64,000 bases of DNA from Intestinirhabdus alba (GTDB lineage: Bacteria; Pseudomonadota; Gammaproteobacteria; Enterobacterales; Enterobacteriaceae): the NCBI RefSeq assembly GCF_009711095.1, contig NZ_WMJZ01000020.1, positions 1-64,000 of the forward strand, read 5' to 3'. Under the pieces are notes generated by a model, which worked only from the letters and a program-made list of their open reading frames with translations, did not search any database and was not told where the DNA came from. Below are positions 3,040-57,801 of the stretch, piece by piece. Position numbers and translations under genes: made by a program. Positions within the stretch are counted from its first letter, which is position 1; every line of letters begins with the position of its first letter.

Positions 3040-3094
<55 letters not shown>

Positions 3095-3169
3095 AATAGT
3101 GGCCATACCGGTGGCGTACTGGCTGATATCGCTGTCCTGTCGGCTTTTCTTCCCGGGCGATATGACTGT

Positions 3170-3345
3170 GGGCGACTTCCCTGGCGGGAACCGGCGCTGT
3201 CGTAAACGGAGCCAGTAAACCGTCTCCGCCCTGTCGGGCTTCCATCGCACTGTCGCAGGTTCAACATCACGCTTGCGGCATCCGTAAACGGATGCGCCGC
3301 TCTCACCAGCCCGGCGGTAATGCTGCCGGGCTTCTTCGGGGCAAC
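3170..3345 (+). promoter_or_regulatory. Structured leading-region element, copy 1 (Frpo/ssi-like)
   Basis: Related to 8117-8282 and 11110-11262. Shared landmarks in order are CTGTCGT-AACGGAG, CCGTCTCCGCCCT, GGGC-TCCATC, CGCTTGC, a GCATCC-GTAAAC-GGATGC hairpin (3278-3295) and a CCCGGC / GCCGGG hairpin around GGTAATGCT. Stems are kept while bases change between copies. F-plasmid Frpo/ssi elements fold in the transferred strand into a promoter for leading-region genes; the similarity is by architecture and position, not by alignment. The rest of 2875-3675 shows no gene. Next gene downstream is DUF905 at 3676. Confidence 0.65.
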
Positions 3346-3675
3346 GCCGTTTCGCGCCCGCGCGTTCCGTCGTTGCAGCGGGTTCCTGCTCATTTTCTCC
3401 TGGTCATTTCACCCTTTTGAGTCCTTTCGCCGGGGCTGAGACAAGCACAGCCGCTGTCAGCTGTCCAGGGTAAATGGCACGCGGTAAACCGCGCCCTGGA
3501 CATCCGCCATCGCCCGCGCTGGTTTACGCCCCTGCGGCGAACGGCTCTCAAACGGGTGAAGGTAACAACCAGCGGGGGCGTTCAGCAGGTCCCCGCAAAA
3601 CGTCAAAACCGCGGCCCCGGCAACTCAACGGGTGATGGTTTTTAAAAGCAAAACAGGTTCAGAAGGAGGAGCAAC

Positions 3676-3906
3676 ATGAGCGAGGCGCTGGCGGTTTTAC
3701 CCGACGACACCTTTACCCGCGAACAGGCTGAGGTCGTTGTGGCGCAGTACACCAACGTGGCAATTGAGGACGATCAGGGGGCGCATTTTCGCCTGGTTGT
3801 CCGTCAGAACGGTGAAATGGTCTGGCGCACGTGGAACTTTGAGCCGGGCGGCACGTACTGGCTCAACCGTTATATCGCGGACTACGGTATCCGCAAGCCG
3901 CAGTAA
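3676..3906 (+). CDS. DUF905-family protein
   Basis: 76 aa preceded by AGAAGGAGG, a near-perfect ribosome binding site. The sequence ([24 protein letters not shown] ... RLVVRQ ... WNFEPGG, given here in pieces) is the DUF905 pattern found next to parB/psi genes on IncF plasmids. Function unknown. It is the first gene of the cassette after structured element copy 1. A GC-rich hairpin (3916-3944) separates it from the ParB-like gene. Confidence 0.8.
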
Positions 3907-3915
3907 GAAAGAGGT

Positions 3916-3944
3916 GCCCTGCCGGAGCGCGAACTCCGCAGGGC
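3916..3944. repeat. Intergenic hairpin DUF905/ParB-like
   Basis: GCCCTGC / GCAGGGC with an inner GGAG / CTCC continuation, in the 72-base gap between the two genes. Part of the recurring hairpin series of the leading region; no T-run follows. Confidence 0.7.
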
Positions 3945-3978
3945 CAGACAATCATCAATATCCAGTGAGGTATCAACT

Positions 3979-5988
3979 ATGTCAGTAACCGATGTTAAAG
4001 CAAAAGCCCCCAAAAAAGCGAGCAGCAAAAAAATCACGAAGGCGCAGGAAGAAGCCCTGAAAGCCGCCCTTGAGGCCGCTGTCATCGAGTATGTTCCGCT
4101 GTCCAGTCTCGCTAAATCCCCGCTGAACGTGCGCACCATCCCGTATTCCGTGGACAGCGTTCGCGGTCTGGCTGACTCCATCGAGGCGCTCGGACTGCTG
4201 CAGAACCTGATTGTTCACACCCTCGCGGACGGACAATCCGGCGTGGCCGCAGGTGGCCGCCGACTGACTGCCCTGAATCTGCTGGCGCAGGAAGACCGTC
4301 TTGCGGCCGATCATACCGTCATGGTGAAGCGCGTCTCAGACGACATTGCGGCCCTCGCCTCGGTTGCCGAGAACGAGCAGCGCGCCGCCATGCATCCCGC
4401 CGAGCAAATCGCAGGTTTCCGTACGCTGGCAGAGCAGGGCAAAACCCCCGCGCAGATTGGCGATGCGCTCGGCTTCGGCTCCCGTCACGTGCAGCGCATG
4501 CTGAAGCTGGCAAACCTCGCGCCATCACTGATGGATAAGCTCGCGCAGGACGAACTGACCGTTGAGCAGTGTCAGGCGCTCTGTCTCGAGGACGATCCTG
4601 CCCGCCAGGTAGAGGTATTCGAAAGCGTAAAGGCCAGCTGGTCGAACGCGCCCGCACACCTGATTAAACGCGCCATTACCGAAACCGAGATGCGCACCGA
4701 CAGCGCCAGATTCCGGTTTATCGGGCGCGAAGCGTATGAGGCGGCAGGGGGGTACGTCCGTGAAGATCTGTTCAGCCAGGACGAGGGCGACGGCACGGCA
4801 GACAGCGTGCTGGTTGAGCATCTGGTGCAGGAAAAGCTGGAGCGTATCGCCCTGGACATTCAGCAGCGTGAGGGCTGGGCATGGAGTCGCGGACGCGCAG
4901 CCCGCATCTGGTACCACGGCGAAGACGGTAAGGAGTTCGTGCAGCCTGTTGAACCCGATCCGGTGTACACCCCTGAGCAGCAGCAGCGTCTTGATGCGCT
5001 GCGGGAGCAGTACGATACATATGACAGCGTTTGCGACGAGTCAGATGCGATCGAAGCGGACATCCTCGCCATTCAGGCGGCGGCAGAAGCCAGCGCGTGG
5101 ACTGACGACATGAAGTCAGGCGCGGGGGTGATGGTCAGCCTGTACGAAGGGCAGGTGTACGTGCAGCGCGGTGTGCGCCTGAAAGCGGATATGCCGGAAG
5201 AAACCGTAACCAGCAGCGTAACGGTGCCATTCACCTCACGCCAGCCCGACGCCGCAGAGGGGATCAGCGTTCCGCTGCTCAAGAAAATGACCTCCGAGCG
5301 TACGCTGGCAGTCCAGGCGGCGCTGATGCAGCAGCCCGAAAAGGCAGTGACGCTGATGGTCTGGCGCATGTGTACCTGTGTCTTTTCCGGCTGTCTGACC
5401 ACGACGCACCCGTTCCGTATCAGTCTGACCGTGTCCCACGGCAGCCTGACGGAGAACGCCCCGTCCGGTAAGGATGGCGCAGCGTTTGAGATGCTCATGA
5501 CCGAACGGGCAAGGCTGAAAGCTCTGCTGCCGGAAGGGTGGGAGAAGGACTTCACAACCTTCTTTGCCCTTGACGGCGGGGTGTTGATGTCGCTGATGGC
5601 CTTTTGCACGGCCTGTTCCGTTGACGGGGTACAGACCCGCGATATGGGACACACCTCGCGCAGTACCCTCGATGCGGTCGAGGCGGCAATCGGATTCCAC
5701 CTGCGCGACTGGTGGCAGCCGACGAAGGACAACTATTTCTCCGGCCTGAAACATCCGCAGATTGTCGCCTCCCTGAAAGAGGCGGGGCTGACGGGCGCGG
5801 CGGGTGACGCGGAGAAGATGAAGAAGGGCGATGCAGCAGCGCATGCGGAGCACTTTATGCAGCACACCCGCTGGGTTCCGGCATGGCTCAAAGGACCGGA
5901 GTCAGCAGGTAAGGCCGATGCTGACGACGCTGCTTCAGATACCGACAGCACTGGCAACGACACCACCAACACGGCACATGCCGCCTGA
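3979..5988 (+). CDS. ParB/RepB/Spo0J-family protein of the leading region (YubM-type)
   Basis: 669 aa. A lysine-rich N-terminus is followed at about residues 37-130 by a ParB N-terminal (sulfiredoxin-like) domain with SPLNVR and AGGRRLTALNLL. A KorB/ParB helix-turn-helix region follows (PAQIGDALGFGSRHVQRMLKLANL, about residues 153-178). The long C-terminal half is specific to the plasmid family. There is no parA beside it, so a partition role is unlikely. In F-like plasmids this gene sits just before psiB as here, and ssb usually accompanies it, but no ssb is visible in this window. Nuclease or CTP-dependent activity is possible from the family but not shown. Confidence 0.88.
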   Translation: MSVTDVKAKAPKKASSKKITKAQEEALKAALEAAVIEYVPLSSLAKSPLNVRTIPYSVDSVRGLADSIEALGLLQNLIVHTLADGQSGVAAGGRRLTALNLLAQEDRLAADHTVMVKRVSDDIAALASVAENEQRAAMHPAEQIAGFRTLAEQGKTPAQIGDALGFGSRHVQRMLKLANLAPSLMDKLAQDELTVEQCQALCLEDDPARQVEVFESVKASWSNAPAHLIKRAITETEMRTDSARFRFIGREAYEAAGGYVREDLFSQDEGDGTADSVLVEHLVQEKLERIALDIQQREGWAWSRGRAARIWYHGEDGKEFVQPVEPDPVYTPEQQQRLDALREQYDTYDSVCDESDAIEADILAIQAAAEASAWTDDMKSGAGVMVSLYEGQVYVQRGVRLKADMPEETVTSSVTVPFTSRQPDAAEGISVPLLKKMTSERTLAVQAALMQQPEKAVTLMVWRMCTCVFSGCLTTTHPFRISLTVSHGSLTENAPSGKDGAAFEMLMTERARLKALLPEGWEKDFTTFFALDGGVLMSLMAFCTACSVDGVQTRDMGHTSRSTLDAVEAAIGFHLRDWWQPTKDNYFSGLKHPQIVASLKEAGLTGAAGDAEKMKKGDAAAHAEHFMQHTRWVPAWLKGPESAGKADADDAASDTDSTGNDTTNTAHAA

Positions 5989-5997
5989 TAACGGAGA

Positions 5998-6015
5998 GCC
6001 GCCCTGCGGGGCGGC
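5998..6015. repeat. Hairpin just before psiB ribosome binding site
   Basis: GCCGCCC TGCG GGGCGGC, directly followed by the AAGGAG of psiB. Same design as the hairpin at 10020-10039. Confidence 0.75.
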
Positions 6016-6030
6016 GATAAGGAGATACCC

Positions 6031-6462
6031 ATGCGTACTATTCTGACCCCCGATGTACTGAAAACGATGTCCCTTGATGAGTTTGAGGACTGGCGGGACA
6101 GCGGCGAAGACTTTCGCCGCGAACTAACCCACGCCGTCATGCGTGACCTGTCCTGCCCTGAGAACTGGGATGTGAACGGCGAGTACCGCAGCGAGTTCGG
6201 CGGCTTCTTCCCCGTGCAGGTGCGCTTTACGCCCCCGCACGGCAACTACCATATTGCCGTGTGCAGTCCAGGTGCCATCAGTCCGGCGTGGATGGTGGTG
6301 TTCGTGCCCGCCAGAGGTCGCCCGTTCTCCGTCATTCGTACCCTGAACGGCTACCAGCCGGAGCTTGTCAGCCACACCGTCAGCCTGACGGCGCGTCTCG
6401 ATGCGGACGGCTACAGTCAGGCCAGCATCATCAGCATTCTGGCAGCGGAGGGTGCGGCATGA
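6031..6462 (+). CDS. psiB: SOS inhibitor PsiB
   Basis: 143 aa, matching the usual PsiB length of 144. It carries recognisable blocks LDEFEDWRDSGEDFRREL near the N-terminus and GGFFPVQVRFTPPHG in the middle. PsiB binds free RecA and prevents SOS induction when plasmid single strands enter the recipient. It is translationally coupled to psiA (ATGA overlap) and follows the ParB-like gene as on F and R100. Acts in the recipient cytoplasm shortly after transfer. Confidence 0.95.
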   Translation: MRTILTPDVLKTMSLDEFEDWRDSGEDFRRELTHAVMRDLSCPENWDVNGEYRSEFGGFFPVQVRFTPPHGNYHIAVCSPGAISPAWMVVFVPARGRPFSVIRTLNGYQPELVSHTVSLTARLDADGYSQASIISILAAEGAA

Positions 6463-7187
6463 TCCCCTCACATCACTCTCTGGTCCCCTTCAGCCCTGAG
6501 CGACGCGCCGCGATGGAGGCCATCGCTGAGGTTGAACGCCGGCGATCGCGCGGCGCGGTGTCCACGATGTACCCGTATGCCAGCGCCTTTTTCCGGCGGC
6601 TCACGGGCAGCACGCGCATCTCACTCAGGGAAATCCATCATTTTGCGCCGGTGCTGACGGCGCGGGAGCTGCGGGGCAGCAGGGACAGCTGGCTCAGGGC
6701 CATCGATGCCCTGATTGAAAGTCGCGGGACGTGTTGCTGGCTGCCGCTTCCTGTCGGTGCAGGTCAGCGTCTCTTTCCGGAGGTGGCCTTTCAGCAGGCC
6801 GAGCGGGTTCGCTGTCAGGACGCCCTGCGGGATGAAAAATACATCCGCCAGCGCCACAAGGAACGGTGCCAGCGTGAGCGGGCGTACCAGGCGCTGGCGG
6901 GGCAGGCGGAGATTGAGCTGGCATTCCATACGCCAGAAACGGTCAGCAGCTGGAGCGCGCGCTGGTCGGGGACTGAACTGCGCCAGTACGACCTGGAGGA
7001 GATGTTCTGGCGCTGGAGCGAGCGCTTTCCTTCCTTGTCGGCGCTGGAGCGGGATGAATTTGCACGCGAACCGCTCTGGAGCATGGTGTTCGAGGCCGGA
7101 TTGCTGACAGAAGAGGCTTCCGTTCCCGTACGACAGCTGGAGCACTGGATGGTACCGAACAAGCTGACGTTCCGGGAGGGGACATGA
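6459..7187 (+). CDS. psiA: PsiA protein
   Basis: 242 aa, start at the ATG overlapping the psiB stop (ATGA). Begins MIPSHHSLVPFSPERRAAM and is rich in Arg, Trp and Glu; length agrees with PsiA of F (about 239 aa). psiA is always found behind psiB; its own activity is not well defined. Stop overlaps the next gene's start, showing continued operon coupling. Confidence 0.92.
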   Translation: MIPSHHSLVPFSPERRAAMEAIAEVERRRSRGAVSTMYPYASAFFRRLTGSTRISLREIHHFAPVLTARELRGSRDSWLRAIDALIESRGTCCWLPLPVGAGQRLFPEVAFQQAERVRCQDALRDEKYIRQRHKERCQRERAYQALAGQAEIELAFHTPETVSSWSARWSGTELRQYDLEEMFWRWSERFPSLSALERDEFAREPLWSMVFEAGLLTEEASVPVRQLEHWMVPNKLTFREGT

Positions 7188-7423
7188 GCAGGAGAGCAAA
7201 TCCGTACGGGCAGGAACTGAAAATTGCCCGCAGTCAATGTAAACGCCTGAAGACGATGATAAACAAGCTCACCGATATGTCGGTTGAGTGGGATGGCCTG
7301 AGTGGTGGTCTGGAGTGCGACTTCAACATGCTGGCCGAAGAAGTGGAGAAGCAGCTGGACGTACTTGATGCGCAGATTGCCGACTGGGCTGAGGGATACG
7401 GCGACGGCAGGGAGGTGGGGTGA
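7184..7423 (+). CDS. Hypothetical small protein, 79 aa
   Basis: Starts four bases inside the psiA stop (ATGAGC overlap) and its own stop overlaps the next start (TGATG), so it is almost certainly translated. The N-terminus is basic (MSRRANPYGQELKIARSQCKR) and the rest acidic with heptad-like spacing, suggesting a helical or coiled-coil protein. No family recognised. Confidence 0.7.
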   Translation: MSRRANPYGQELKIARSQCKRLKTMINKLTDMSVEWDGLSGGLECDFNMLAEEVEKQLDVLDAQIADWAEGYGDGREVG

Positions 7424-7920
7424 TGGCAACAGAACGGAATATGCGGGGAAACATCGTCTGCAGGGAGTGCGGAAGGGCGTTTTCCTTCCTGGCCCCGCAT
7501 CTGCGTATGACACATGAGATGTCGGTAAGTGAATATCGCGAGCGCTGGGGTATAGCGAAACATGTCCCGCTTGCCAGTGCCGAACACTCAACCAGATGCC
7601 GGGACAACGTTATCAGACGTATCCGGAGCGGCGAGCTGGACCCTGACCTGCAGGTCAGAATGATGGCGGAAGGGTACGCCAGGATAAAAGACCGAAGCAG
7701 ACCCTCAGCACTACAGCAAAAGTCGTCCTCCAGAACGGCGACCCTAAACCGGATATGGGAAACCTCCCCTGCCGTGAAAAGGGTCAGCGCAGAGATCCGG
7801 CGGGAGGCCGTGCGCAGAATGAAGGCCCGCAACGAAACGGGTGAAAATGTGCGGAGTATTGCTGATGAACTGAACCTGTCCCTGAGCTGTCTGTATCGCT
7901 GGCAGGCTGAAGATGGCTGA
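7423..7920 (+). CDS. Ros/MucR-type zinc-finger protein with C-terminal helix-turn-helix
   Basis: 165 aa. Residues about 12-50 read VCRECGRAFSFLAPHLRM-THEMSVSEYRERWG: a CxxC and HxxxxH zinc site followed by the xxYRxxWG block typical of Ros/MucR regulators of Rhizobiales. Residues about 142-160 (VRSIADELNLSLSCLYRW) look like a second, resolvase/transposase-type helix-turn-helix. The middle is basic. It is coupled to the upstream gene by a TGATG overlap and closes the psiB-psiA operon. A DNA-binding role is well supported; the target is unknown. GTG at 7420 is an alternative start. Confidence 0.75.
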   Translation: MATERNMRGNIVCRECGRAFSFLAPHLRMTHEMSVSEYRERWGIAKHVPLASAEHSTRCRDNVIRRIRSGELDPDLQVRMMAEGYARIKDRSRPSALQQKSSSRTATLNRIWETSPAVKRVSAEIRREAVRRMKARNETGENVRSIADELNLSLSCLYRWQAEDG

Positions 7921-8116
7921 CGGCCTGTCGGGATTTTTTTTGCACACATGCTTTTCGGATAACATCATTAAATGTCTGCGCAGAATGCCGGTGCTGGACA
8001 CTTTTCTGGTTAACAGCCTGCTGCTGCTGCGGGCTAATGTACTGGATAAAAAACGGTATACGCTGGCGGGTCTGGCTAATGAACTGGCTGTTTTCACCGA
8101 AACGGCAACACACGGG

Positions 8117-8282
8117 CGTCGTCCCTGACGGGACACGGCTGTCGTGAACAGAGTCAGCAAGCTGTCTCTGCCCTGCGGGCGTCCATCCTGACGCAACGTC
8201 AACCCCTACGCTTGCTGCGTCCGTAAACGGACGCGCCGCTTCACCCTGTCGGCGGTAAAACTGCCGACAGTCCTCTGACGCC
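8117..8282 (+). promoter_or_regulatory. Structured leading-region element, copy 2 (Frpo/ssi-like)
   Basis: Shares with copies 1 and 3 the GTCGTCCCTGA-GGGACACGGC start, CTGTCGTGAAC-GAG, GGGCGTCCATCCTGACGCAA, and the two closing hairpins. Here the hairpins are GCGTCC / GGACGC (8217-8234) and GTCGGC / GCCGAC. Both stems carry paired changes relative to the other copies. Downstream, 8283-8550 has no gene but holds a TTTTTGCG / CGCAAAAA stem (8422-8443) and a good ribosome binding site. Between 7921 and 8116 I see no convincing gene. Confidence 0.68.
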
Positions 8283-8550
8283 CCGTCGTTCCGCCGTGTC
8301 GGGTGTGTTCATCCTCTCCCCGTATCTCTGGCGAGCCCTCTCCCGTTAAGTCCCCGGGCGGAGGGCTTGTCGTAGCACCGTCGTGTCGTCATCCGAAGGG
8401 TGAAATGAACTCCGCCAAAACTTTTTGCGAAGGACCGCAAAAACTTTTGTCTTCGCCCTTCTCCTGTCGCCCCGCCGTTGCTCCTTTGCCCTTTGCCGCC
8501 AGGGAACTCACCGAGAGATGGATTAACCACCAGACAGGAGGAAAAGCAGG

Positions 8551-8925
8551 ATGAACACACAGAACGTCAACGTCAAAACCGCCACCAAAGAATCTTCCGA
8601 AAGATGGGTGAAAACCTCGTCCCTGCGTACTGATGGCTTTGTGCGCAATATCTATTCCCGTAACCCGTTCGATGTTATTCGCGCGGACGTGGTGCTGGCC
8701 CGTATGGAAATACAGGCTAACCGGGGATGTGGCCTGCACTACGAGATTTATGAGTCCCGTCTGCTGGGTATGGCTATGCATTACCTGGCAGAACTGCCAC
8801 TGAAAGACCGTCCGGCGTTTATGGGGGCGGCAGCGAAACGGGGTTACATGCTGACGACTGCGGAAGAAGAACGTGCCGATGGTGAATGTGCTGACCTGAT
8901 GATCGAGCTGGCGGCGGATTACTGA
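8551..8925 (+). CDS. Hypothetical protein, 124 aa, with leader peptide shared with the ArdB-like gene
   Basis: Preceded by ACAGGAGG. The first residues (MNTQNVNVKTATKES) resemble those of the ArdB/KlcA-like protein at 11512 (MHTLNVKTATRES), although the remainder is unrelated. The body (residues 40-124) is helical with no recognised domain. It is the first gene downstream of structured element copy 2 and heads a run of five same-strand genes. An early-expressed protective role is suggested by position only. Confidence 0.7.
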   Translation: MNTQNVNVKTATKESSERWVKTSSLRTDGFVRNIYSRNPFDVIRADVVLARMEIQANRGCGLHYEIYESRLLGMAMHYLAELPLKDRPAFMGAAAKRGYMLTTAEEERADGECADLMIELAADY

Positions 8926-8937
8926 TTACTTAATCGG

Positions 8938-8960
8938 CTGGCGGCATCACCTGCCGCCAG
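8938..8960. repeat. Intergenic hairpin
   Basis: CTGGCGGCA TCACC TGCCGCCAG, a nine-bp perfect stem lying between the stop at 8925 and the ribosome binding site before 8979. Confidence 0.8.
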
Positions 8961-8978
8961 CAACAACGGAGAAACATC

Positions 8979-9272
8979 ATGAGCATCAGCAACGGTAACA
9001 CGAACAGCACATCCAGCTTCGACGCATGGGAGAAAAGCGCGCTCAGCGAGCTTGATACCCTGCAAAACCACGTCAGTAAAGCCCTGATGAAGTACCAGAG
9101 CAATACGGACAAAACGGCGCTGGGCGAGTCTGCAAACCGCTATATGGGCGAACTCAGAACCGCTGTCACGCGCATCCAGAAAGCCACGCCAGCCATTCAG
9201 CAGAAAGTCGACGGGATTGCCGACATGCTGCACCTGATGGCGCATTTTTCCGGCACCACGTTTGACGAATAA
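8979..9272 (+). CDS. Hypothetical protein, 97 aa
   Basis: ATG follows a purine-rich AACGGAG. The first 15 residues are Ser/Asn/Thr-rich and probably disordered, and the rest is a series of amphipathic helices (EKSALSELDTLQNHVSKAL). No Cys, no membrane segment, no family recognised. Operon position between two other unknown genes, separated by a hairpin on the 5' side. Confidence 0.65.
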   Translation: MSISNGNTNSTSSFDAWEKSALSELDTLQNHVSKALMKYQSNTDKTALGESANRYMGELRTAVTRIQKATPAIQQKVDGIADMLHLMAHFSGTTFDE

Positions 9273-9318
9273 CCACCACGGCGAAATATCAACGCCATTA
9301 ACCAGAAGGAGATAAGCC

Positions 9319-9663
9319 ATGCACTTAAATCTGACCGAATCCAGTGCCGAAGCAGGTATTTACGCGACCAGTGAGGCCGAACGCGCGTACTGGCTGAGCC
9401 GCGAAAAGTCATACCTGACCGCGCCCGTCGAAATCGACGTGCACGCCTTCCATGATGCGCTGGGGCTGATGTACCCGATGAACTGGCGCAGCAGTGAAGA
9501 CGGCGAGTGTGAAACCTTCATGCTGGCGGAAATGGTCTGCGGCAACGTGACCGAAATCTACGCGCGGATCGGTATCCGTTATTACCGGATGCGTGGCTAC
9601 AGCAACCTTGACCACGCGGAGATTCTGGCACGCGTTAAGGAGGGAATGCAGCGCCAGAAATGA
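9319..9663 (+). CDS. Hypothetical protein, 114 aa
   Basis: ATG preceded by AGAAGGAGAT, a strong ribosome binding site. Contains aromatic-rich segments (AYWLSREKSYLTAPVEIDVH and IGIRYYRMRGY) and looks like a compact globular protein. No recognised domain. It ends immediately before a pair of hairpins (9668-9726). Part of the cassette governed by structured element copy 2. Confidence 0.65.
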   Translation: MHLNLTESSAEAGIYATSEAERAYWLSREKSYLTAPVEIDVHAFHDALGLMYPMNWRSSEDGECETFMLAEMVCGNVTEIYARIGIRYYRMRGYSNLDHAEILARVKEGMQRQK

Positions 9664-9667
9664 AAAA

Positions 9668-9726
9668 GGCAGACTTTCGTCTGCCATATCCCGCCGGATT
9701 TATTCGCCTTCAACGATAAATCCGGC
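9668..9726. repeat. Two consecutive hairpins between genes
   Basis: First hairpin GGCAGAC TTTC GTCTGCC (9668-9685), preceded by an A-run, so it would act as a terminator for minus-strand transcription. Second is a perfect 10-bp inverted repeat, GCCGGATTTA at 9693-9702 and its complement at 9717-9726. The next gene starts 22 bases later. Confidence 0.75.
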
Positions 9727-9748
9727 CTTCACCAAAAGGAACAAACCA

Positions 9749-10012
9749 ATGCAATTCAGTGAAGTTTCGATTGTTACACCGACCGCCCTGTATGTCCAGA
9801 TGCTTGAGGCGGAAAACGCACCTGTCAAAAAACAGGTGCGCATTACACGCAGTGATATCGACCGTGACGAAATCAGCGCCGAAATGCGGGCGCTGGGGAG
9901 ACATATCGCAAAGTGCCGCAGAAAGGGGCGCTCCGTTCGCATTCCTGCCATGCGCGGAAGCGAGTGGGGGCAAGTGTTACGCACGCTCGAACTGAAGCGC
10001 GCATTTAACTGA
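9749..10012 (+). CDS. Hypothetical basic protein, 87 aa
   Basis: Start chosen at the ATG at 9749 after AAAAGGAAC. The C-terminal half is Arg-rich (KCRRKGRSVRIPAMRGSEW), compatible with nucleic-acid binding. No family recognised. Lies in the copy-2 cassette, separated from the methyltransferase-like gene by a GC hairpin. Confidence 0.6.
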   Translation: MQFSEVSIVTPTALYVQMLEAENAPVKKQVRITRSDIDRDEISAEMRALGRHIAKCRRKGRSVRIPAMRGSEWGQVLRTLELKRAFN

Positions 10013-10019
10013 CGGAGGT

Positions 10020-10039
10020 GCCGCCCCGCAGGGGGCGGC
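10020..10039. repeat. Hairpin just before a ribosome binding site
   Basis: GCCGCCCC GCAG GGGGCGGC, followed within six bases by AAGGAGG. Matches the arrangement before psiB. Confidence 0.75.
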
Positions 10040-10054
10040 ATTTAAGGAGGAAAT

Positions 10055-10885
10055 ATGTCTCAACTCAGTTTTTCCAGCTTCTTTGATCAGGCGAGAGAAG
10101 CCGCACCCTTAACACCCGCTAAACCCGTATTGCCCACCGTGAATGTGCAGCCGATACCGCACCGGATGATGACAATCGACCAGGCCCGCCGCCAGTTTAT
10201 CAGCGTGTTCAGGGATACCGCCCGCAGCCTGCGCCGCTGGGAGGTGTTCAGCGACTTTATCACGCTGGCCGCCAGCGAGCTGGATATAACGCGGATAAGA
10301 ACGCCGCAGAATATTGAGCAGAGCCGCAAAATCTGCGCGAAGTACAGCGAGAGCGATATCAGCAATCTGCATACGCTTTTCTGCCTGATGGTCTGCGCAC
10401 TGGAGGCCAAATTCCACGACTTCCTCGGCGCGATCTTCATGGAGCTTGAGCTTGGCGACGACCGCAACGGACAGTATTTCACGCCGTATCACGTCCAGTC
10501 ACTGCTGGCGAGGCTGCTGATGCCGGACGTCGACGAAACGATACGCCGTGAGGGATTCGTGACCGTCAGCGATCCGGCAAGCGGTGCGGCGGGAATGATT
10601 GTGGCGTATGCGGAATATCTGCTGGAGGCGGGCTATAACCCGTCTGAGCATATGTTCGGAAGCTGTATCGATATTGATCCTGTTGCGGCCGATATGGCGT
10701 TTATTCAGCTTTCCCTGCTGGGTATTCCTGCCGAGGTGGTCACGGGCAATACGCTGACGATGCAATTAAACAGGGTGCGGTATACGCCTGTGTACTACAT
10801 CAACAACTTTGGTAAGCGGCTGGACGATCAGCGCCGTATCAGTGCCATGCGCGAATTTTTGCGCTGTATAAATGACACAGCATAG
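10055..10885 (+). CDS. N6-adenine methyltransferase-fold protein lacking the NPPF catalytic motif
   Basis: 276 aa with a strong AAGGAGG site. Residues about 140-250 match the N6_Mtase fold of type I modification subunits. They include GQYFTPYHVQSLLARLL, motif I as DPASGAAGM, an acidic DIDPVAADM at motif II, and VTGNTL. Where the catalytic NPPF/Y should follow, the protein reads YTPVYYINNFGKRL and then ends about 24 residues later. Normal HsdM proteins are about twice this length. S-adenosylmethionine binding looks intact but catalysis is doubtful. A decoy or regulatory role against restriction is an inference; a diverged active enzyme is the alternative. Confidence 0.75.
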   Translation: MSQLSFSSFFDQAREAAPLTPAKPVLPTVNVQPIPHRMMTIDQARRQFISVFRDTARSLRRWEVFSDFITLAASELDITRIRTPQNIEQSRKICAKYSESDISNLHTLFCLMVCALEAKFHDFLGAIFMELELGDDRNGQYFTPYHVQSLLARLLMPDVDETIRREGFVTVSDPASGAAGMIVAYAEYLLEAGYNPSEHMFGSCIDIDPVAADMAFIQLSLLGIPAEVVTGNTLTMQLNRVRYTPVYYINNFGKRLDDQRRISAMREFLRCINDTA

Positions 10886-11109
10886 CTATCCAGAAGGGCA
10901 GGGGAGTGTCCTGCCTTTGGTGGCATCAAAGGCCGCGCGCCTGCGGCGCAGAATAAGCAGGCTGCGCTGACGCGCTGCCTGCGTTATTCCGGCGCGAGGT
11001 TGTCTGAAGTTCCTGTCTTTTGGTTAGCTGATTACTATTCTTCATTCTCCTGCTGGCGATGGTCTTTATTATTCTGCCGCTGATATGGATATTATCCTTT
11101 CTTTTCCAG

Positions 11110-11262
11110 GCGTCGTCCCTGAAGGGACACGGCTGTCGTGAACGGAGCCGGTAAACCGTCTCCGCCCTTCGGGCGTCCATCCTGACGCAAATTCAAATTC
11201 ATGCTTGCTGCATCCAGAATGGATGCGCCGCTTTCACCGTGGCGGTAATAAATTACCGCCAC
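11110..11262 (+). promoter_or_regulatory. Structured leading-region element, copy 3 (Frpo/ssi-like)
   Basis: Closest to copy 2 at its start (CGTCGTCCCTGA-GGGACACGGC) and to copy 1 in CGGAGCC-GTAAACCGTCTCCGCCC. Hairpins are GTCCC/GGGAC, GCCCTTCGGGC, GCATCC / GGATGC (11210-11226) and a perfect 11-bp GTGGCGGTAAT / ATTACCGCCAC stem. It lies 250 bases before the ArdB-like gene and is the copy closest to oriT, so it enters the recipient first. The stretch 10886-11109 shows no gene. Confidence 0.7.
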
Positions 11263-11383
11263 TCTGATGGCCGTAACGGATATTCGTCCCGCGACGATTT
11301 TCCGTTACGGGATGTGTGCATTCTCCTGGTGTGACTATCGCCCGATTTCATCAGTTCGCGGAGGGCTGCTTTTAGCATCAGCC

Positions 11384-11436
11384 AGAAAGGAAATAAAGGG
11401 GTATATAAACGCTGCGCGCCCCTTTATTTCCTTTCT
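11384..11436. repeat. Perfect 18-bp inverted repeat upstream of the ArdB-like gene
   Basis: Arms at 11384-11401 (AGAAAGGAAATAAAGGGG) and 11419-11436 (its exact complement), with a 17-base loop containing TATATAAA. It would form a long hairpin on the entering single strand. It sits 76 bases before the gene start, in the same leader as structured element copy 3. Confidence 0.9.
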
Positions 11437-11511
11437 GTCAGCTGCTCATTGCCCTTCGCCGCTCAGTGATGAAGTCGAACGATGTAATAACTCAATGAGG
11501 AGAAAATTAGA

Positions 11512-12042
11512 ATGCACACATTAAACGTCAAAACCGCCACTCGTGAATCAGCCGAACAATTTAAAGTCGATGAACGACAGCGCTATTGTGTTACAGATGG
11601 CGATGAACGTCTTGATTTTATTCCTGCGCTCTTTTTTACGCCTTCTGCTGATAATATGATTGCCAGCTGGTTACGTCAGCATTCAGATTATGATGGTGGT
11701 TTCTGGAGTTACTGGATTATTCCGCAGGGCACCGGAGGAAACGTGGCTCCGAACTGTGTCAGATTCACAACCGCGCAAACAGGATATATCGCACCGGAAG
11801 GAGAACAGCGCTATAACATGGTTATTCCTGGTAATTACTTTGAAGCAGAGGTCAGTGCCGATGCTGCCGGAATTATTGCGACCCTGATGATTATGAACTG
11901 GTTGTCCTGGCAGGTTGCCGATATGGGGCCTGAATATTCGAAAGTCTGTAAACACCTCGTCGCTCGTCAGGACGCACTGAAAGATTACATCAGTATCATA
12001 AAACACCCTGAAGCATATTTAATTTATCGGGCTATTGATTGA
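11512..12042 (+). CDS. ArdB/KlcA-family antirestriction protein
   Basis: 176 aa, ATG after AATGAGGAG. The body follows the ArdB/KlcA pattern: an N-terminal segment, then GGFWSYW, and the diagnostic SADAAGIIATLMIMNWLSW, ending in a helical KDYISIIKHPEAYLIYRAID. These proteins inhibit type I restriction without the DNA mimicry of ArdA. The first 13 residues resemble the leader of the gene at 8551. It is the first plus-strand gene to enter the recipient, which suits an immediate defence function. A bidirectional terminator follows. Confidence 0.88.
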   Translation: MHTLNVKTATRESAEQFKVDERQRYCVTDGDERLDFIPALFFTPSADNMIASWLRQHSDYDGGFWSYWIIPQGTGGNVAPNCVRFTTAQTGYIAPEGEQRYNMVIPGNYFEAEVSADAAGIIATLMIMNWLSWQVADMGPEYSKVCKHLVARQDALKDYISIIKHPEAYLIYRAID

Positions 12043-12063
12043 CGACATAAATACTGGATGAAT

Positions 12064-12090
12064 AAAAAGACCTCCTGTTGAGGTCTTTTT
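12064..12090. terminator. Bidirectional rho-independent terminator
   Basis: AAAAAGACCTC CTGTT GAGGTCTTTTT: an A-run, a GACCTC/GAGGTC stem and a T-run. It lies between the convergent ArdB-like gene and the transglycosylase gene, reading properly on both strands. Confidence 0.9.
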
Positions 12091-12562
12091 ACTGTTTTGC
12101 AAGAGTCTGCCCTGAGTCTTTATTCTTTTTTATCGCCCGGTATGTTGCCTCAATTTTTCTGGCATAGATATATCTTCTCTGCGCCTGTTCTTCTGTTTTC
12201 CGGAAACCTGCATTATACGCCCCCACGGCCTGCCAGCTGACTCCCCACTTTTTGAAAGCTATTGCAAGATAGTAAGCCCTGGTGTAGATATTCATACATG
12301 GGTCGGTAATAAGGTGCTCCGGTTTTATTCCATAACGAGCCAGTTCGTTAAAGTGCTGGGAGTCCACCTGCATAAGTCCGGAGCCAAAACCCGAAACAGG
12401 ATTGTGGCCTTTAACGTCTGTGCGGAAGTTCGATTCATTCCAGGAGATTGCCCGAAGCAGATCTGGATCTATATGATAATCTCTGCCCGCCATATCAAAA
12501 CAATCTGCATTAGCATTCTGAGCGGCTATCAGGAGTAATGCTGCCAGAAGTAGATTCCTCAC
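12089..12562 (-). CDS. Conjugation-associated lytic transglycosylase (orf169/geneX type)
   Basis: 157 aa from a GTG start after CAGGGAAATAATA; no ATG gives a sensible signal peptide. Signal peptide is [17 protein letters not shown] followed by DCFD. The SLT domain has the catalytic Glu in AISWNESNF, the [10 protein letters not shown] block and the GAYNAG motif. It opens peptidoglycan for the transfer apparatus in the periplasm. On F-like plasmids this gene lies next to oriT facing away from traM, as here. Confidence 0.92.
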
Positions 12563-12689: not shown

Positions 12690-12720
12690 GTCTCACACCC
12701 CACGCAAAATTTCATTTTGC
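12690..12720 (-). other. oriT nic region with hairpin
   Basis: On the minus strand a GCAAAA / TTTTGC hairpin with a TGAAA loop (12704-12719 plus coordinates) is followed by GTGGGGTGT then GAGAC. In F the same layout, hairpin then GTGGGGTGT cut before GG, is the TraI relaxase site. The inferred cut is on the minus strand between plus positions 12694 and 12695, so lower coordinates enter the recipient first. The bases after the cut differ from F, which usually tracks with relaxase specificity. Confidence 0.85.
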
Positions 12721-13027
12721 AGGATTATATACTTAAATCATGTATTTACGATTGGATTATGAATGCAAGTTAGTGTTTTATCGCACAGAAGGGCACTGCC
12801 ATAGTGCCGTAATGTCGCCTGTTTGTGGCTCTATTGTGGCTAATGTAGTGCTAAATGAGAATAATCATGCAATTACTATGAATGCCACACATTGCGGTGC
12901 CGCTAAATGTGTGGCATTGTAGTGCCTGATTATGGCCAGTTAGCACTGCAATAGTGCTGAATATTTATTGAGGCTATTTTTAAACAGTGCCAGTGTGGTG
13001 CTGTCAGGGCAAGAGGGAAATAAAGTT
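12721..13027. promoter_or_regulatory. oriT binding-site region and traM promoter region
   Basis: No gene. Contains a perfect 13-bp inverted repeat, AATGCCACACATT at 12881-12893 and its complement at 12906-12918. Shorter dyads with the same flavour occur at 12792-12808 (GGCACT/AGTGCC) and 12942-12958 (AGCACT/AGTGCT). TGTGGC and TAGTGC are repeated throughout. By position these are candidate TraM and TraY binding sites used in relaxosome assembly and traM autoregulation. An AT-rich segment near 12725-12770 could hold the IHF site. Confidence 0.6.
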
Positions 13028-13408
13028 ATGCCACGGCAGAATGTTTATATGAAGCAAAAAACAATTGATGGTATCCGACAAATCGTCGATATGAGAAGGG
13101 AAGAGGGCGCGACAGCTTCCGATGCCAATATCTCCAGTGTCTGTTCCGAAATGCTGGAACTGGGAATGCGTGTATACCTCAATGCCAAAAATAAGAAGGC
13201 ATCAGATGCAGAAGCCGGTGAAGATGTATTTCAAAGTGCGCTTTTTGAAGAAGTAGTAAAATCAAGAATGGCATCACAGGAGATACTGGCACTGATGTTT
13301 TCTTTGCAGGATATAAAATCTGATAGTCGTAACAATTACGATAAATTGATCGACTCTCTAAAAGAGAAAACAGATTTACGGGTCAAAAAGGTACTCAACA
13401 GAGAGTAG
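13028..13408 (+). CDS. traM: Relaxosome protein TraM
   Basis: 126 aa (F TraM 127). Starts MPRQNVYMKQKTIDGIRQIV, the ribbon-helix-helix DNA-binding N-terminus, with a conserved SMLLELG-type segment here as EMLELGMRVY near residue 45. A charged helical tetramerisation region and the C-terminal tail that contacts the coupling protein TraD follow. TraM binds oriT repeats and controls its own promoter. An upstream in-frame extension exists but lacks family similarity, so the ATG at 13028 is preferred. Confidence 0.93.
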   Translation: MPRQNVYMKQKTIDGIRQIVDMRREEGATASDANISSVCSEMLELGMRVYLNAKNKKASDAEAGEDVFQSALFEEVVKSRMASQEILALMFSLQDIKSDSRNNYDKLIDSLKEKTDLRVKKVLNRE

Positions 13409-54889: not shown

Positions 54890-55113
54890 ACTTCAGCGCC
54901 TTTATGCTGCGCGTGGCCGGACAGGTCTCGTATCACCGCTTGATCCTCGACCCGTTGAGCCGGGTGATGTTCTCGTCCGACGGCGATGACTTTGAGTTTC
55001 GTGAACAGTGCCTGAAAGAGGGGAAAACTGTCCATGAAGCGCTCTGGTTACTGGCCCGTAAAAAATACGCTAAGGAAATGGAGGTGCTGGAACAATGGCA
55101 GATACAGTCGTGA
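54889..55113 (+). pseudogene. traC: traC, 3' part, separated by the prophage
   Basis: 74 codons and stop, continuing HFSAFMLRVAGQVSYHRLIL exactly where the 5' part breaks. It has no start or ribosome binding site of its own at the junction. Its first ATG (54904) could give a 69-aa fragment of no evident use. Its stop overlaps the trbI start, so trbI translation may lose coupling in the interrupted state. Confidence 0.95.
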
Positions 55114-55577
55114 ATCAACCGGAGTCCCCTGAATTACAACCTTCTGCGGACGTTACCCCGGCAGACGGAACGCGTCATAACGTCGCTTCAACATCATCCC
55201 ATCAACGTCTTAGTCGCCGTCGCCGGCGCTGCCTGGTACCGGTAGCCTGTGTCACCGCTTTTATTCTGGTCATGAATGCCGGCATCTCGATGTTGCTGGC
55301 GCAATGGCAGCGACCGGAGACGGTGAGCTTCGATATGACCGGGACGGTGAATAACTTTATGGCTCAGGTGGCCGGGCGTCATCTCAGCGATGATGAGGTA
55401 AAAGCCACCACCGCGCGTTTTAATACCGCCCTCAATGCCTCGCTGACTGACTGGCAACGCCATCACGGCGCCATCATCCTGGTGGCACCGGCGGTGGTGG
55501 GTGGTACCCGCGATATCACTGCAGATGTTCAGGCAGAGGTGGCGAACCGGATGGCAGAGGGAGAGAGTCATGAGTGA
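55095..55577 (+). CDS. trbI: TrbI, inner-membrane pilus protein
   Basis: 160 aa. Basic cytoplasmic stretch (RLSRRRRRCLVPV), membrane helix (about residues 50-72) and the FDMTGTVNNFMAQ / DDEVKATTARFNTALNASLT region typical of type-F TrbI. Longer N-terminal tail than F TrbI (128 aa). Affects pilus retraction. Overlaps the traC end by 19 bases. Confidence 0.88.
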   Translation: MADTVVNQPESPELQPSADVTPADGTRHNVASTSSHQRLSRRRRRCLVPVACVTAFILVMNAGISMLLAQWQRPETVSFDMTGTVNNFMAQVAGRHLSDDEVKATTARFNTALNASLTDWQRHHGAIILVAPAVVGGTRDITADVQAEVANRMAEGESHE

Positions 55578-55785
55578 CGAAGTCGATGTGGCCCAGGACG
55601 TTGTTGAGCTGACGAATACCGTGGCGGTGCTGGCTATCCGCCATCAGTTGCAGGCAGCGGGGAGAGAATACTGCCAGTCGTGTGGTGAAGCCATCCCGGT
55701 AGCCCGGCGTCTGGCGGCACCGTGGGCAGACACCTGCACGCCGTGCCAGAGCGTACTGGAGCACCGAAATAAGGTGGGCTACTGA
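55570..55785 (+). CDS. traR: TraR, DksA-like zinc finger
   Basis: 71 aa (F TraR 73). Starts MSDEVDVAQDVVEL as F TraR does (MSDE), then CQSCGEAIPVARR followed by CTPCQ, the four-Cys zinc site of DksA/TraR. Binds RNA polymerase secondary channel and mimics DksA/ppGpp. In F it lies between traV and traC; here it sits between trbI and traW. Overlaps trbI by eight bases. Confidence 0.88.
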   Translation: MSDEVDVAQDVVELTNTVAVLAIRHQLQAAGREYCQSCGEAIPVARRLAAPWADTCTPCQSVLEHRNKVGY

Positions 55786-56411
55786 TGCATAAACGATATC
55801 TGACGTTGTTGCTTCTGGTCTGTCCACTGGTCGGGCAGGCAAAAGATCTGGGCTCATGGGGAGATGTCTGGCCGGTGCAGGAGCAGAGCTTTCTGGCGCT
55901 GATTCAGGATCGCCTGCAGGGTTTGCAGGGTAACGGCCAGCTGGCGGAGCTGCAGCAACAGTTCCAGGACCGGGTGGTGGAGCACACGCTGCGCCCGACA
56001 CCGGTAGAAGGGCTGGTTACAGACACGCAGGCACATACGTCCTGGTATGACCCGACCTTTGTGGTTGGCCAGACGCTGGCCGATGCGCAGGGTCAGGTCT
56101 TTGCGCGTCAGGGCGATACCCTGAACCCGCTGGATACGCTGGCGCTGAATACCACCCTCTATTTTATCGACGGTGATGATACGCGTCAGGTCGCCTGGAT
56201 GAAGGCGCAAACCCCGCCCACGCCAACCTACAAGGTCATTCTGGTCAACGGCAACATCAAAACGGCAGCAGATGCGCTGTCAGAGCGTATCTACTTCGAC
56301 CAGCAAGGCGTACTGACAAAGAAACTGGGTATTCACTACATTCCTGCAATGGTCAGTCAGGACGGTAAGCGCCTGAAGATCACCTCAGCCCCCATAAAGG
56401 AGGCCCGATAA
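55785..56411 (+). CDS. traW: TraW
   Basis: 208 aa (F 210). Signal peptide MHKRYLTLLLLVCPLVGQAK, then DLGSWGDVWPVQEQSFLALI, the TraW start. The central FVVGQTLADAQGQVFARQGD and C-terminal thioredoxin-like YKVILVNGNIK block follow. Periplasmic, works with TrbC in pilus assembly. Start overlaps traR stop. Confidence 0.94.
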   Translation: MHKRYLTLLLLVCPLVGQAKDLGSWGDVWPVQEQSFLALIQDRLQGLQGNGQLAELQQQFQDRVVEHTLRPTPVEGLVTDTQAHTSWYDPTFVVGQTLADAQGQVFARQGDTLNPLDTLALNTTLYFIDGDDTRQVAWMKAQTPPTPTYKVILVNGNIKTAADALSERIYFDQQGVLTKKLGIHYIPAMVSQDGKRLKITSAPIKEAR

Positions 56412-56809
56412 TGCTGTTCCCGCTTGTTATTACCCTGCTGTGTTTCACCGTCGGCGCGCTGCTGTTGGTGGTGATATTCCAGCGACGGGAATACCGTCGC
56501 CTGCGGGCGGATGCCGATGGGATCGTGATGCGCTATCTGGCGGTTGCTGAGCGGTTTGAGTCTCTGGTCCGTGAACTGACGGAGCCTTACGGCGGTGTAT
56601 TGTATGATTTGATGGAGGTGGAGCAGCTTGCGGCCCGGATGAAGGCGTTGCCCGACCGTGAAATACGGGAGACCGCTGAGCGTATTCTTGAGCGCCTGAA
56701 TGAACGAATGCGCATGTTACTGAAGCAGGTGTCAGACCGTTATCGCCTGTCTGATGCCGATCGGCAGCGCTGGCTGAGTGAACCGGAATACCCGGAGGTC
56801 GGCAAATGA
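56411..56809 (+). CDS. Unrecognised membrane-anchored coiled-coil protein between traW and traU
   Basis: 132 aa. One N-terminal membrane helix (MLFPLVITLLCFTVGALLLV), then Arg/Glu-rich helices (RMKALPDREIRETAERILER) with heptad spacing, in the cytoplasm or periplasm. Overlaps both traW and traU starts, so it is translated. F has no gene at this place. Function unknown; an inner-membrane assembly accessory is possible. Confidence 0.7.
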   Translation: MLFPLVITLLCFTVGALLLVVIFQRREYRRLRADADGIVMRYLAVAERFESLVRELTEPYGGVLYDLMEVEQLAARMKALPDREIRETAERILERLNERMRMLLKQVSDRYRLSDADRQRWLSEPEYPEVGK

Positions 56810-57801
56810 CATTCAGACTTTCTGCTTTTCTACTGGCCTGCGGTCTGACCATCGGTACCGGTACACAGGCCTCTGAACCCGAATGCCAGGGGCGATTTGT
56901 CAATCCGATCACCGATATCTGCTGGGAATGTATGTTCCCGATGTCCATCGGTAATGCGACGGTGTCGTCCGGTTCGCTGCCGGATACAGAGAACCCGTCG
57001 TCCCCCATCCAGTTCTGCCCGGTTCCGCCGCCTGTCTTTCAGCGTATCGGACTGGCGATTGGTTTCTGGGAGCCGTTTGCCCTGACCGATGTAACCCGCG
57101 CGCCATTCTGCATGGTCAATCTCGGTGGTGTGAGCATCAGCGCCGGCAAGCTCGGCAGCGGTGGCGGGAAACGCCAGGGGGCGGTCAATACCGGTGCCTT
57201 CTACCACGTCCACTGGTACAAATACCCTCTGACCTGGTGGCTCAATATTATTACCGACCTCGGCTGCCTGCAGGGTGGGGATATGGATATCGGCTATCTG
57301 TCCGAACTGGACCCGACCTGGGATGACAGCTCGCTGGCCTCGGTGCTGGCACCTGAAGCATTCCTGTTCGCCAATCCCATCGCGCAGGGGGCCTGTGCTG
57401 CTGATGCGCTGGCCAGCGCCGTTTCAAAACCCTTAAACCCGCTGTTCTGGTGTGCTGGTTCGCACGGCAGTATGTACCCGTTTACGGGGTTTGTCTCCAA
57501 TCAGGCCAGCCCACAGGCCGCCAGCGTGCTGCTCTCCGAGCGAATGGACTACAAGTTGCACCGTCAGGGGATGATCCTGAACAGCGTCGGTGCCGATACC
57601 GCCGTCTGCTACGAGTATCCGTCCCCCATTATGCCGAAAGACCGCTACCGCTATCAGATGGTGAATATGTATCCGGATGCGAGGCGCTGTCACCCGTTTG
57701 GCCGTACCGTGATGGCGTGGGAGGCCGGACATGCCACGCCGGCGAGCCGACAGAACTTTGGTTACCTCATCTGGCGCAAGCGTAACTGCGTCTTCCTCTG
57801 A
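56806..57801 (+). CDS. traU: TraU
   Basis: 331 aa (F 330). Signal peptide (MTFRLSAFLLACGLTIGTGTQA), then CQGRFVNPITDICWECMFPM, and Cys-rich throughout, including CCAGSHG-type WCAGSHGSMYPFTG. Periplasmic protein needed for DNA transfer and mating-pair function; disulphides probably formed with TrbB. Confidence 0.95.
   Translation: MTFRLSAFLLACGLTIGTGTQASEPECQGRFVNPITDICWECMFPMSIGNATVSSGSLPDTENPSSPIQFCPVPPPVFQRIGLAIGFWEPFALTDVTRAPFCMVNLGGVSISAGKLGSGGGKRQGAVNTGAFYHVHWYKYPLTWWLNIITDLGCLQGGDMDIGYLSELDPTWDDSSLASVLAPEAFLFANPIAQGACAADALASAVSKPLNPLFWCAGSHGSMYPFTGFVSNQASPQAASVLLSERMDYKLHRQGMILNSVGADTAVCYEYPSPIMPKDRYRYQMVNMYPDARRCHPFGRTVMAWEAGHATPASRQNFGYLIWRKRNCVFL

Follow-up and report, generated by a model that had tools for sequence, protein, structure and literature searches.

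Single-strand promoters of conjugative plasmids

Single-strand promoters of the Frpo/ssi type have been described in several conjugative plasmids. The closest described system is plasmid F, in which Frpo2 and Frpo1 have been placed at ssb and at the gene in the ygeA position, respectively, and in which fusions downstream of a deleted Frpo show no significant early rise (PMC9849209). Sets of three are also on record: pO26-CRL125 contains three imperfect Frpo repeats, R1-R3 (PMC3817090), and in the IncI plasmids p1ESBL and p15ESBL three operons are each headed by an ssi and read from ssi3-1 (PMC10104558). More recently, Samuel et al. (2024) catalogued 13,089 Frpo-homologous promoters in 6,006 elements by means of BLAST and single-sequence folding, and the available text of that work contains no covariation or strand-polarity test of the module that lies upstream of the promoter hairpin (PMC11541004). 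Neither kind of analysis of this module was found in the available parts of the literature searched, the original papers of 1991-2004 being outside its scope.

The window analysed here, that is, the whole stretch of 64,000 nucleotides from Intestinirhabdus alba, contains three elements, E1, E2 and E3, which are new members of the known Frpo/ssi family and of a kind already described. The preliminary description had proposed that each gene cassette possesses its own zygotic promoter; this idea has been published before and is not new. Since F has two Frpo repeats (PMC9849209), and since three repeats or three ssi-headed operons are reported for pO26-CRL125 (PMC3817090) and the IncI plasmids (PMC10104558), the triple arrangement follows a pattern known from these accounts. 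The contribution of the present analysis is to give the coordinates of three putative single-strand promoters within an IncF-type leading region; to provide comparative evidence which points to selection of Frpo-type structure on the transferred DNA strand itself, and not on RNA; and to tell a conserved upstream module apart from the promoter hairpin. As both parts can be deleted separately, the role of the module in early plasmid expression becomes testable.

The three elements and their genes

The elements share one orientation, each ahead of a plus-strand cassette in an IncF-type leading region, and the homologous block begins at about 3164 in E1, 8108 in E2 and 11102 in E3. Identities are 77.5% over 160 columns for the paralogous pair E1-E2, 78.8% over 151 columns for E1-E3 and 82.0% over 139 columns for E2-E3, with pairwise E values of 2e-28 to 3e-33, far past chance. 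When E3 was used as query against the whole genome to which the window belongs, three matches were obtained, namely E1, E2 and E3; likewise, a sequence-only model, in whose training set all three were included, matched only these places on both strands of the 64 kb at E up to 10, each below 2e-18. The modules and the surrounding genes are as follows:

3164..3361, plus-strand coordinates, predicted to fold on the minus (T) strand: E1 upstream hairpin-string module (homology, profile and model matches)
3676..3906, plus strand: first gene of the E1 cassette, 76 aa (read by eye)
3979-5988, plus strand: ParB-like protein, E1 cassette
6031-6462, plus strand: PsiB, E1 cassette
7420-7920, plus strand: ROS/MUCR-like protein, E1 cassette
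8108..8300, plus strand: E2 upstream hairpin-string module (homology, profile and model matches)
8551..8925, plus strand: first gene of the E2 cassette, without Pfam match at E 0.001
10055-10885, plus strand: N-6 DNA methylase, last gene of the E2 cassette, with hypotheticals before it
11102..11293, plus strand: E3 upstream hairpin-string module (homology, profile and model matches; z -5.9)
11512..12042, plus strand: antirestriction protein, E3 cassette (PF03230)
12695..12705, minus strand: F-type nic-like motif GCGTGGGGTGT
12968-13408: TraM, downstream of the E3 cassette

The window starts with genes for a DNA methylase, a DUF1380 protein and ArdA, upstream of E1. The first gene of the E1 cassette has the length (231 bases) and place of the DUF905 gene of a relative plasmid (L037), from which its name is taken, and the antirestriction gene is preceded by AGGAG at 11498-11502, read by eye. 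Two minor features border the elements: a perfect hexanucleotide tandem repeat (unit CGTTGT, 9.2 copies) at 3040-3094, just upstream of E1, and a terminator-like hairpin followed by a T run on the plus strand at 7917-7931, just before E2, which could be a conventional end of the E1 cassette.

The transferred strand (T-strand) was assigned from the motif GCGTGGGGTGT, which we take to be the nic region of F. It also occurs at the corresponding position in F (L004, 21158). Of 11 records searched, 6 contain it, invariably on the minus strand, the exact string being missing from R100. With this motif on the minus strand, the T-strand would be the minus strand, E3 would enter first and the plus-strand genes would be readable from the T-strand. 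The elements, at 3.2-11.5 kb, occupy the leading region and point toward oriT, with the nic-like motif at 12695, as is characteristic of Frpo/ssi; moreover, all 36 elements in 12 plasmid loci with an annotated traM point toward that gene. The placement originally suggested, on the entering-strand side of plus-strand genes, is supported by the position in the leading region, the direction toward oriT and the folding on the entering strand. A simple scan of 3100-12100 gave no sigma-70-like match on the plus strand, its five matches (3.7 expected by chance) being all on the minus strand.

Relation to the Frpo repeats of F and distribution

Each of the three elements matches both Frpo repeats of F, with E values from 3e-15 to 1e-27 (best values of 1e-27 for E1, 4e-20 for E2 and 8e-16 for E3), so that the likeness to the Frpo/ssi of F, which had been put forward from the letters alone, is borne out by homology. 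This homology extends over 95-529 columns, the longest stretch being that between the E1 region and Frpo2 (529), and is accompanied by the same two-part layout, orientation and T-strand hairpin, before ssb/DUF905-type genes and near oriT. In F, ssb and the ygeA-position gene each follow closely on one of these repeats. Several differences exist: F has two copies and the present plasmid three; unlike Frpo2 of F, which is upstream of ssb, E1 precedes the DUF905-position gene, the corresponding place in the relative L037 having no annotated ssb; and the promoter hairpin of E3 shows no significant blastn similarity to that of F. Between the two F repeats the module is better conserved (94.2% identical) than the rest of the repeat (83.5%). 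The published 328-nt Frpo was sought in the F repeats by means of its published identity of 92%, and the best value reached, in 328-column windows moved in steps of 20, was 87.5%.

An iterative profile search of 43 records, which had been picked by similarity or as known examples and thus give no estimate of prevalence, gave 70 homologues spread over 42 of them; 64 of these modules are distinct. Per plasmid, two were found in F, three in R100, two in ColIb-P9 and up to four in Klebsiella IncFII plasmids. The two modules of ColIb-P9 come from the 50 kb searched and belong to an IncI backbone, unlike the IncF-type one of this plasmid; E1-E3 have no blastn match in those 50 kb at E 1e-3, the link being made only through F or the profile. 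In wider collections, the E3 region was matched by 4070 of 72,556 plasmid records at E 1e-5, and E2 in 24 of 392 genomes of the family, that of the window included.

Two-part layout and the promoter-type hairpin

The segments initially reported as elements (3170-3345, 8117-8282 and 11110-11262) are indeed homologous repeats, but they cover the upstream half only, since the homology runs on into a long hairpin which had gone unreported. The view of these segments as the promoter finds no support: they are a GC-rich hairpin module, and the promoter-like hairpin is separate and adjacent. The promoter of each element is likely to be the long imperfect hairpin predicted just downstream of the module:

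3347..3631, minus strand (T-strand): E1 long imperfect promoter-type hairpin (fold, z -6.3 for 3345-3640; homology to Frpo2 of F)
8339..8518, minus strand (T-strand): E2 promoter-type hairpin (fold, z -6.1 for 8290-8520)
11337..11483, minus strand (T-strand): E3 promoter-type hairpin (fold, z -7.1 for 11325-11500)
11369..11374, minus strand, 5'-3' on the T-strand: candidate -10 hexamer TAAAAG with TGC before it (extended -10), invariant in 14/14

A long imperfect stem-loop on the transferred strand, as expected of Frpo/ssi, is thus predicted in all three elements (z -6.1 to -7.1). At its foot the E1 hairpin shares bases with the end of the upstream module, and the apical stem of the E2 hairpin is AT-rich and resembles that of F Frpo. 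As regards the module, the T-strand fold of 11102-11293 in E3 has a z of -5.9, and none of 200 dinucleotide shuffles was as good.

When 67 downstream halves were grouped by blastn single linkage, E1 and E2 fell in an F-like group of 45 and E3 in a separate group of 14. These 14 elements appear as a subtype of promoter hairpin located before the antirestriction gene nearest oriT and combined with the shared upstream module. In them TGCTAAAAGC is invariant (14/14 distinct elements), and 6 of the 47 consensus pairs of the group hairpin have more than one Watson-Crick type. In the predicted E3 hairpin, TAAAAG is paired at its first base only, its remaining five bases falling within an internal loop (11367-11373 opposite 11447-11450), so TGC-TAAAAG looks like an extended -10 held open in this model; a clear -35 is absent beside it. 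For E1, E2 and F, several by-eye readings of a common -35/-10 were tried, and none was convincing. Another long palindrome, at 11272-11315, lies between the module and the promoter hairpin of E3, and is altered yet paired in relatives, as read by eye.

The homology to F, the orientation, the covariation of the core stem, the polarity of the fold and the lack of a plus-strand sigma-70-like match, taken together, make it very probable that E1-E3 are single-strand promoters of the Frpo/ssi type. Their use by polymerase, their timing and any role as primer would be as published for F, by analogy. During conjugation, the minus strand would enter first, in single-stranded form, and the long hairpin on it would imitate double-stranded promoter DNA, the candidate -10 of E3 falling within an unpaired bubble. 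The hairpin would serve as starting point for the RNA polymerase of the host, which would transcribe toward oriT, leading to early and transient expression of the downstream cassette: the DUF905-position gene, the ParB-like protein and PsiB from E1, the hypotheticals and the methylase from E2, and the antirestriction protein from E3. Conversion to double-stranded DNA would act as the off switch.

Strand polarity of the fold

The preliminary description left it open whether folding takes place in single-stranded DNA or in RNA. To compare strands, 64 elements with distinct downstream halves were folded with DNA parameters, 240-nt windows around the elements serving as controls. The T-strand gives the more stable fold in 62 modules and in 62 promoter halves, out of 64 each, and in 142 of the 408 controls; as the elements are related, they do not amount to 64 independent trials. 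The excess stays at 62 and 62 of 64 when wobble pairs are left out, and is 56 and 55 of 64 with RNA parameters. Of the two modules that do not follow the energy trend, one is that of E1 (-39.1 on the plus strand, -38.9 on the T-strand), and in the promoter half of E3 the strands differ by merely 0.9 kcal/mol.

The loops follow the same trend. GNA and GNNA loops are exceptionally stable in DNA, and a post hoc test on 124 distinct hairpins gave 49 of them on the T-strand and 9 on the plus strand. For hairpins A, B, C and D the T-strand counts are 17/24, 12/32, 20/42 and 0/26, and those of the plus strand 0, 2, 6 and 1; counter to this trend, the core loop of E3 is GAA on the plus strand. Furthermore, the core-stem mismatches of 55 copies, in plus orientation, comprise 10 A-C or C-A, no G-T and 3 others, an A-C on the plus strand being a G-T on the T-strand; the 10 A-C cells come from few lineages, as judged by eye. 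One more C-A departure was seen in a core outside the training set (L054). Wobble polarity over all hairpins was discarded as strand evidence, being a tie (8 A-C against 8 G-T on the plus strand) in which the core stem alone is polar, and the stem wobbles of the E3-type group (34 G-T and 4 A-C on the T-strand) were set aside, given that 27 of the 34 fall at two near-constant pairs.

On the grounds of energy polarity, loops and core-stem mismatches, it is probably as single-stranded DNA of the T-strand that the structure is under selection. Of the two media originally considered, the DNA of the entering strand is thus favoured, and a plus-strand RNA fold, for which the polarity is opposite, is not.

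Covariation of the stems

The stems named in the preliminary description were all found on reading by eye. The core stem is GCATCC/GGATGC in E1, GCGTCC/GGACGC in E2 and GCATCC/GGATGC in E3, and the next one is CCCGGC/GCCGGG in E1, GTCGGC/GCCGAC in E2 and GTGGCGGTAAT/ATTACCGCCAC in E3. Covariation was assessed on an alignment of 55 rows, 9 of the 64 distinct modules having been dropped for low profile score, by a G-test with product correction against 60 tree-simulated alignments which kept the number of substitutions per column.

Under this phylogeny-aware null, core-stem pairs rank first, fourth and sixth among 17,955 column pairs, and the top pair is Watson-Crick in 51 of 54 rows, with three types. 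An E of 0.008, the floor of the test, is reached by three nested pairs of the core stem, by one in the next hairpin and by two non-helix pairs. Four of the eight column pairs at E<=0.05 are non-helix and resemble lineage blocks; the null is therefore imperfect, and recombination or lineage blocks leave signal too. For the named structure of 20 pairs, which was drawn from the same alignment that tested it, 90.3% of cells pair, against 80.7% in shuffles and 24-48% with slid partners, and 10 pairs have double changes against 6.1 in shuffles; further pair types, with 16 against 20.1 in shuffles, are the one of five measures that goes against it.

Cores outside the training set were sought with a sequence-only model of the core region (model R1), built on 46 rows (E1-E3 and 43 other segments, 2 of 48 segments having been left out). 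It matched 20 places in 9 of 394 genomes of the order, the own genome included. Thirteen of these were checked as possibly unseen; one was in the training set and another (L056, E 9e-4) was dropped as probable chance, leaving 11. The stem is fully paired in 10 of these, and the remaining one (L054) has an internal C-A. Three of the stems, GTGTCC/GGACAC, GCTGGC/GCCAGC and GCTGCC/GGCAGC (the third, from L061, read by eye), are absent from the training set. Selection on folding, which had been read from the paired changes of the stems in general, is accordingly upheld beyond shared ancestry for the core stem, both by the null test and by the out-of-sample stems, and the case is weaker for the other helices. 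The concern that covariation might show no more support than shared ancestry provides does not apply to the core stem.

Possible roles of the upstream module

The module may be a functional unit in its own right, acting on the T-strand only. Its string of hairpins, often GNA/GNNA-capped, is placed where complementary-strand synthesis, or transcription begun at the preceding element, would come up to each promoter. It would slow their approach and so prolong the time during which the single-stranded promoter is active; if this rather improbable reading as a timer is true, the module would set the length of zygotic expression. Perhaps it may also shield the promoter hairpin, as the module would be the first structure encountered by a polymerase on its way from the element before.

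Less probably, the module could be a separate start of single-strand replication, a primosome or primase site beside the promoter. The name ssi itself stands for single-strand initiation site, and RRGCGG is present on the T-strand by the core stem in 47 of the 50 copies (of 67) whose core was located by pattern. In E2 and E3 it takes the form AAGCGG, which we take to be the PriA effector hexamer; this exact hexamer is found in only 25 of the 50 core-located copies (of 67) and in neither F copy, and an assembly site for a PriA-type primosome, for which a conserved AAGCGG would be expected, was rejected on that account.

It is quite improbable that the hairpin strings act as RNA in the plus-strand transcript of the cassette before them, where they would serve as 3' ends, terminators or stabilisers. 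They do sit between cassettes, at the would-be 3' end of the upstream transcript, and hairpin D has more G-T than A-C mismatches on the plus strand (7 against 3). Nevertheless, the module fold favours the T-strand (62/64, and 56/64 even with RNA parameters), as do the loops (49 against 9) and the core-stem mismatches (10 A-C and no G-T on the plus strand, with 3 others), and the window has no Rfam match at gathering score. Of the five plus-strand terminator sites in 3100-12100, those at 3377, 8422 and 11284 are inside the elements, downstream of the module core, and those at 7917 and 12063 lie just before E2 and after the E3 cassette, the scan of both strands giving 13 sites where 8.4 are expected.

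Least probable of all is that the repeats are mainly recombination sites for the exchange of leading-region cassettes, their similarity reflecting gene conversion and not function, for although a lone Frpo repeat is reported as combining parts of two others at a site that lacks a 9.7 kb block (PMC3817090), and the two F repeats are most alike in the module (94.2%, against 83.5% in the rest), the nearest relative is on the same plasmid in only 7/33 (5' half) and 3/33 (core) cases, and recombination alone would not predict covariation together with strand polarity. Concerted evolution of the modules within a plasmid was rejected on these same neighbour counts.

State of the plasmid

In this plasmid traC is divided at about residue 796 by a prophage. 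Transfer may accordingly be interrupted or impaired, and E1-E3 may be idle here. The stretch at 22364-54891 carries genes for a phage tail and baseplate on the minus strand, those examined being of Mu type by Pfam, and the phage ends may differ from these limits. The remainder of TraC follows at 54892-57798, together with trbI, traW and traU.
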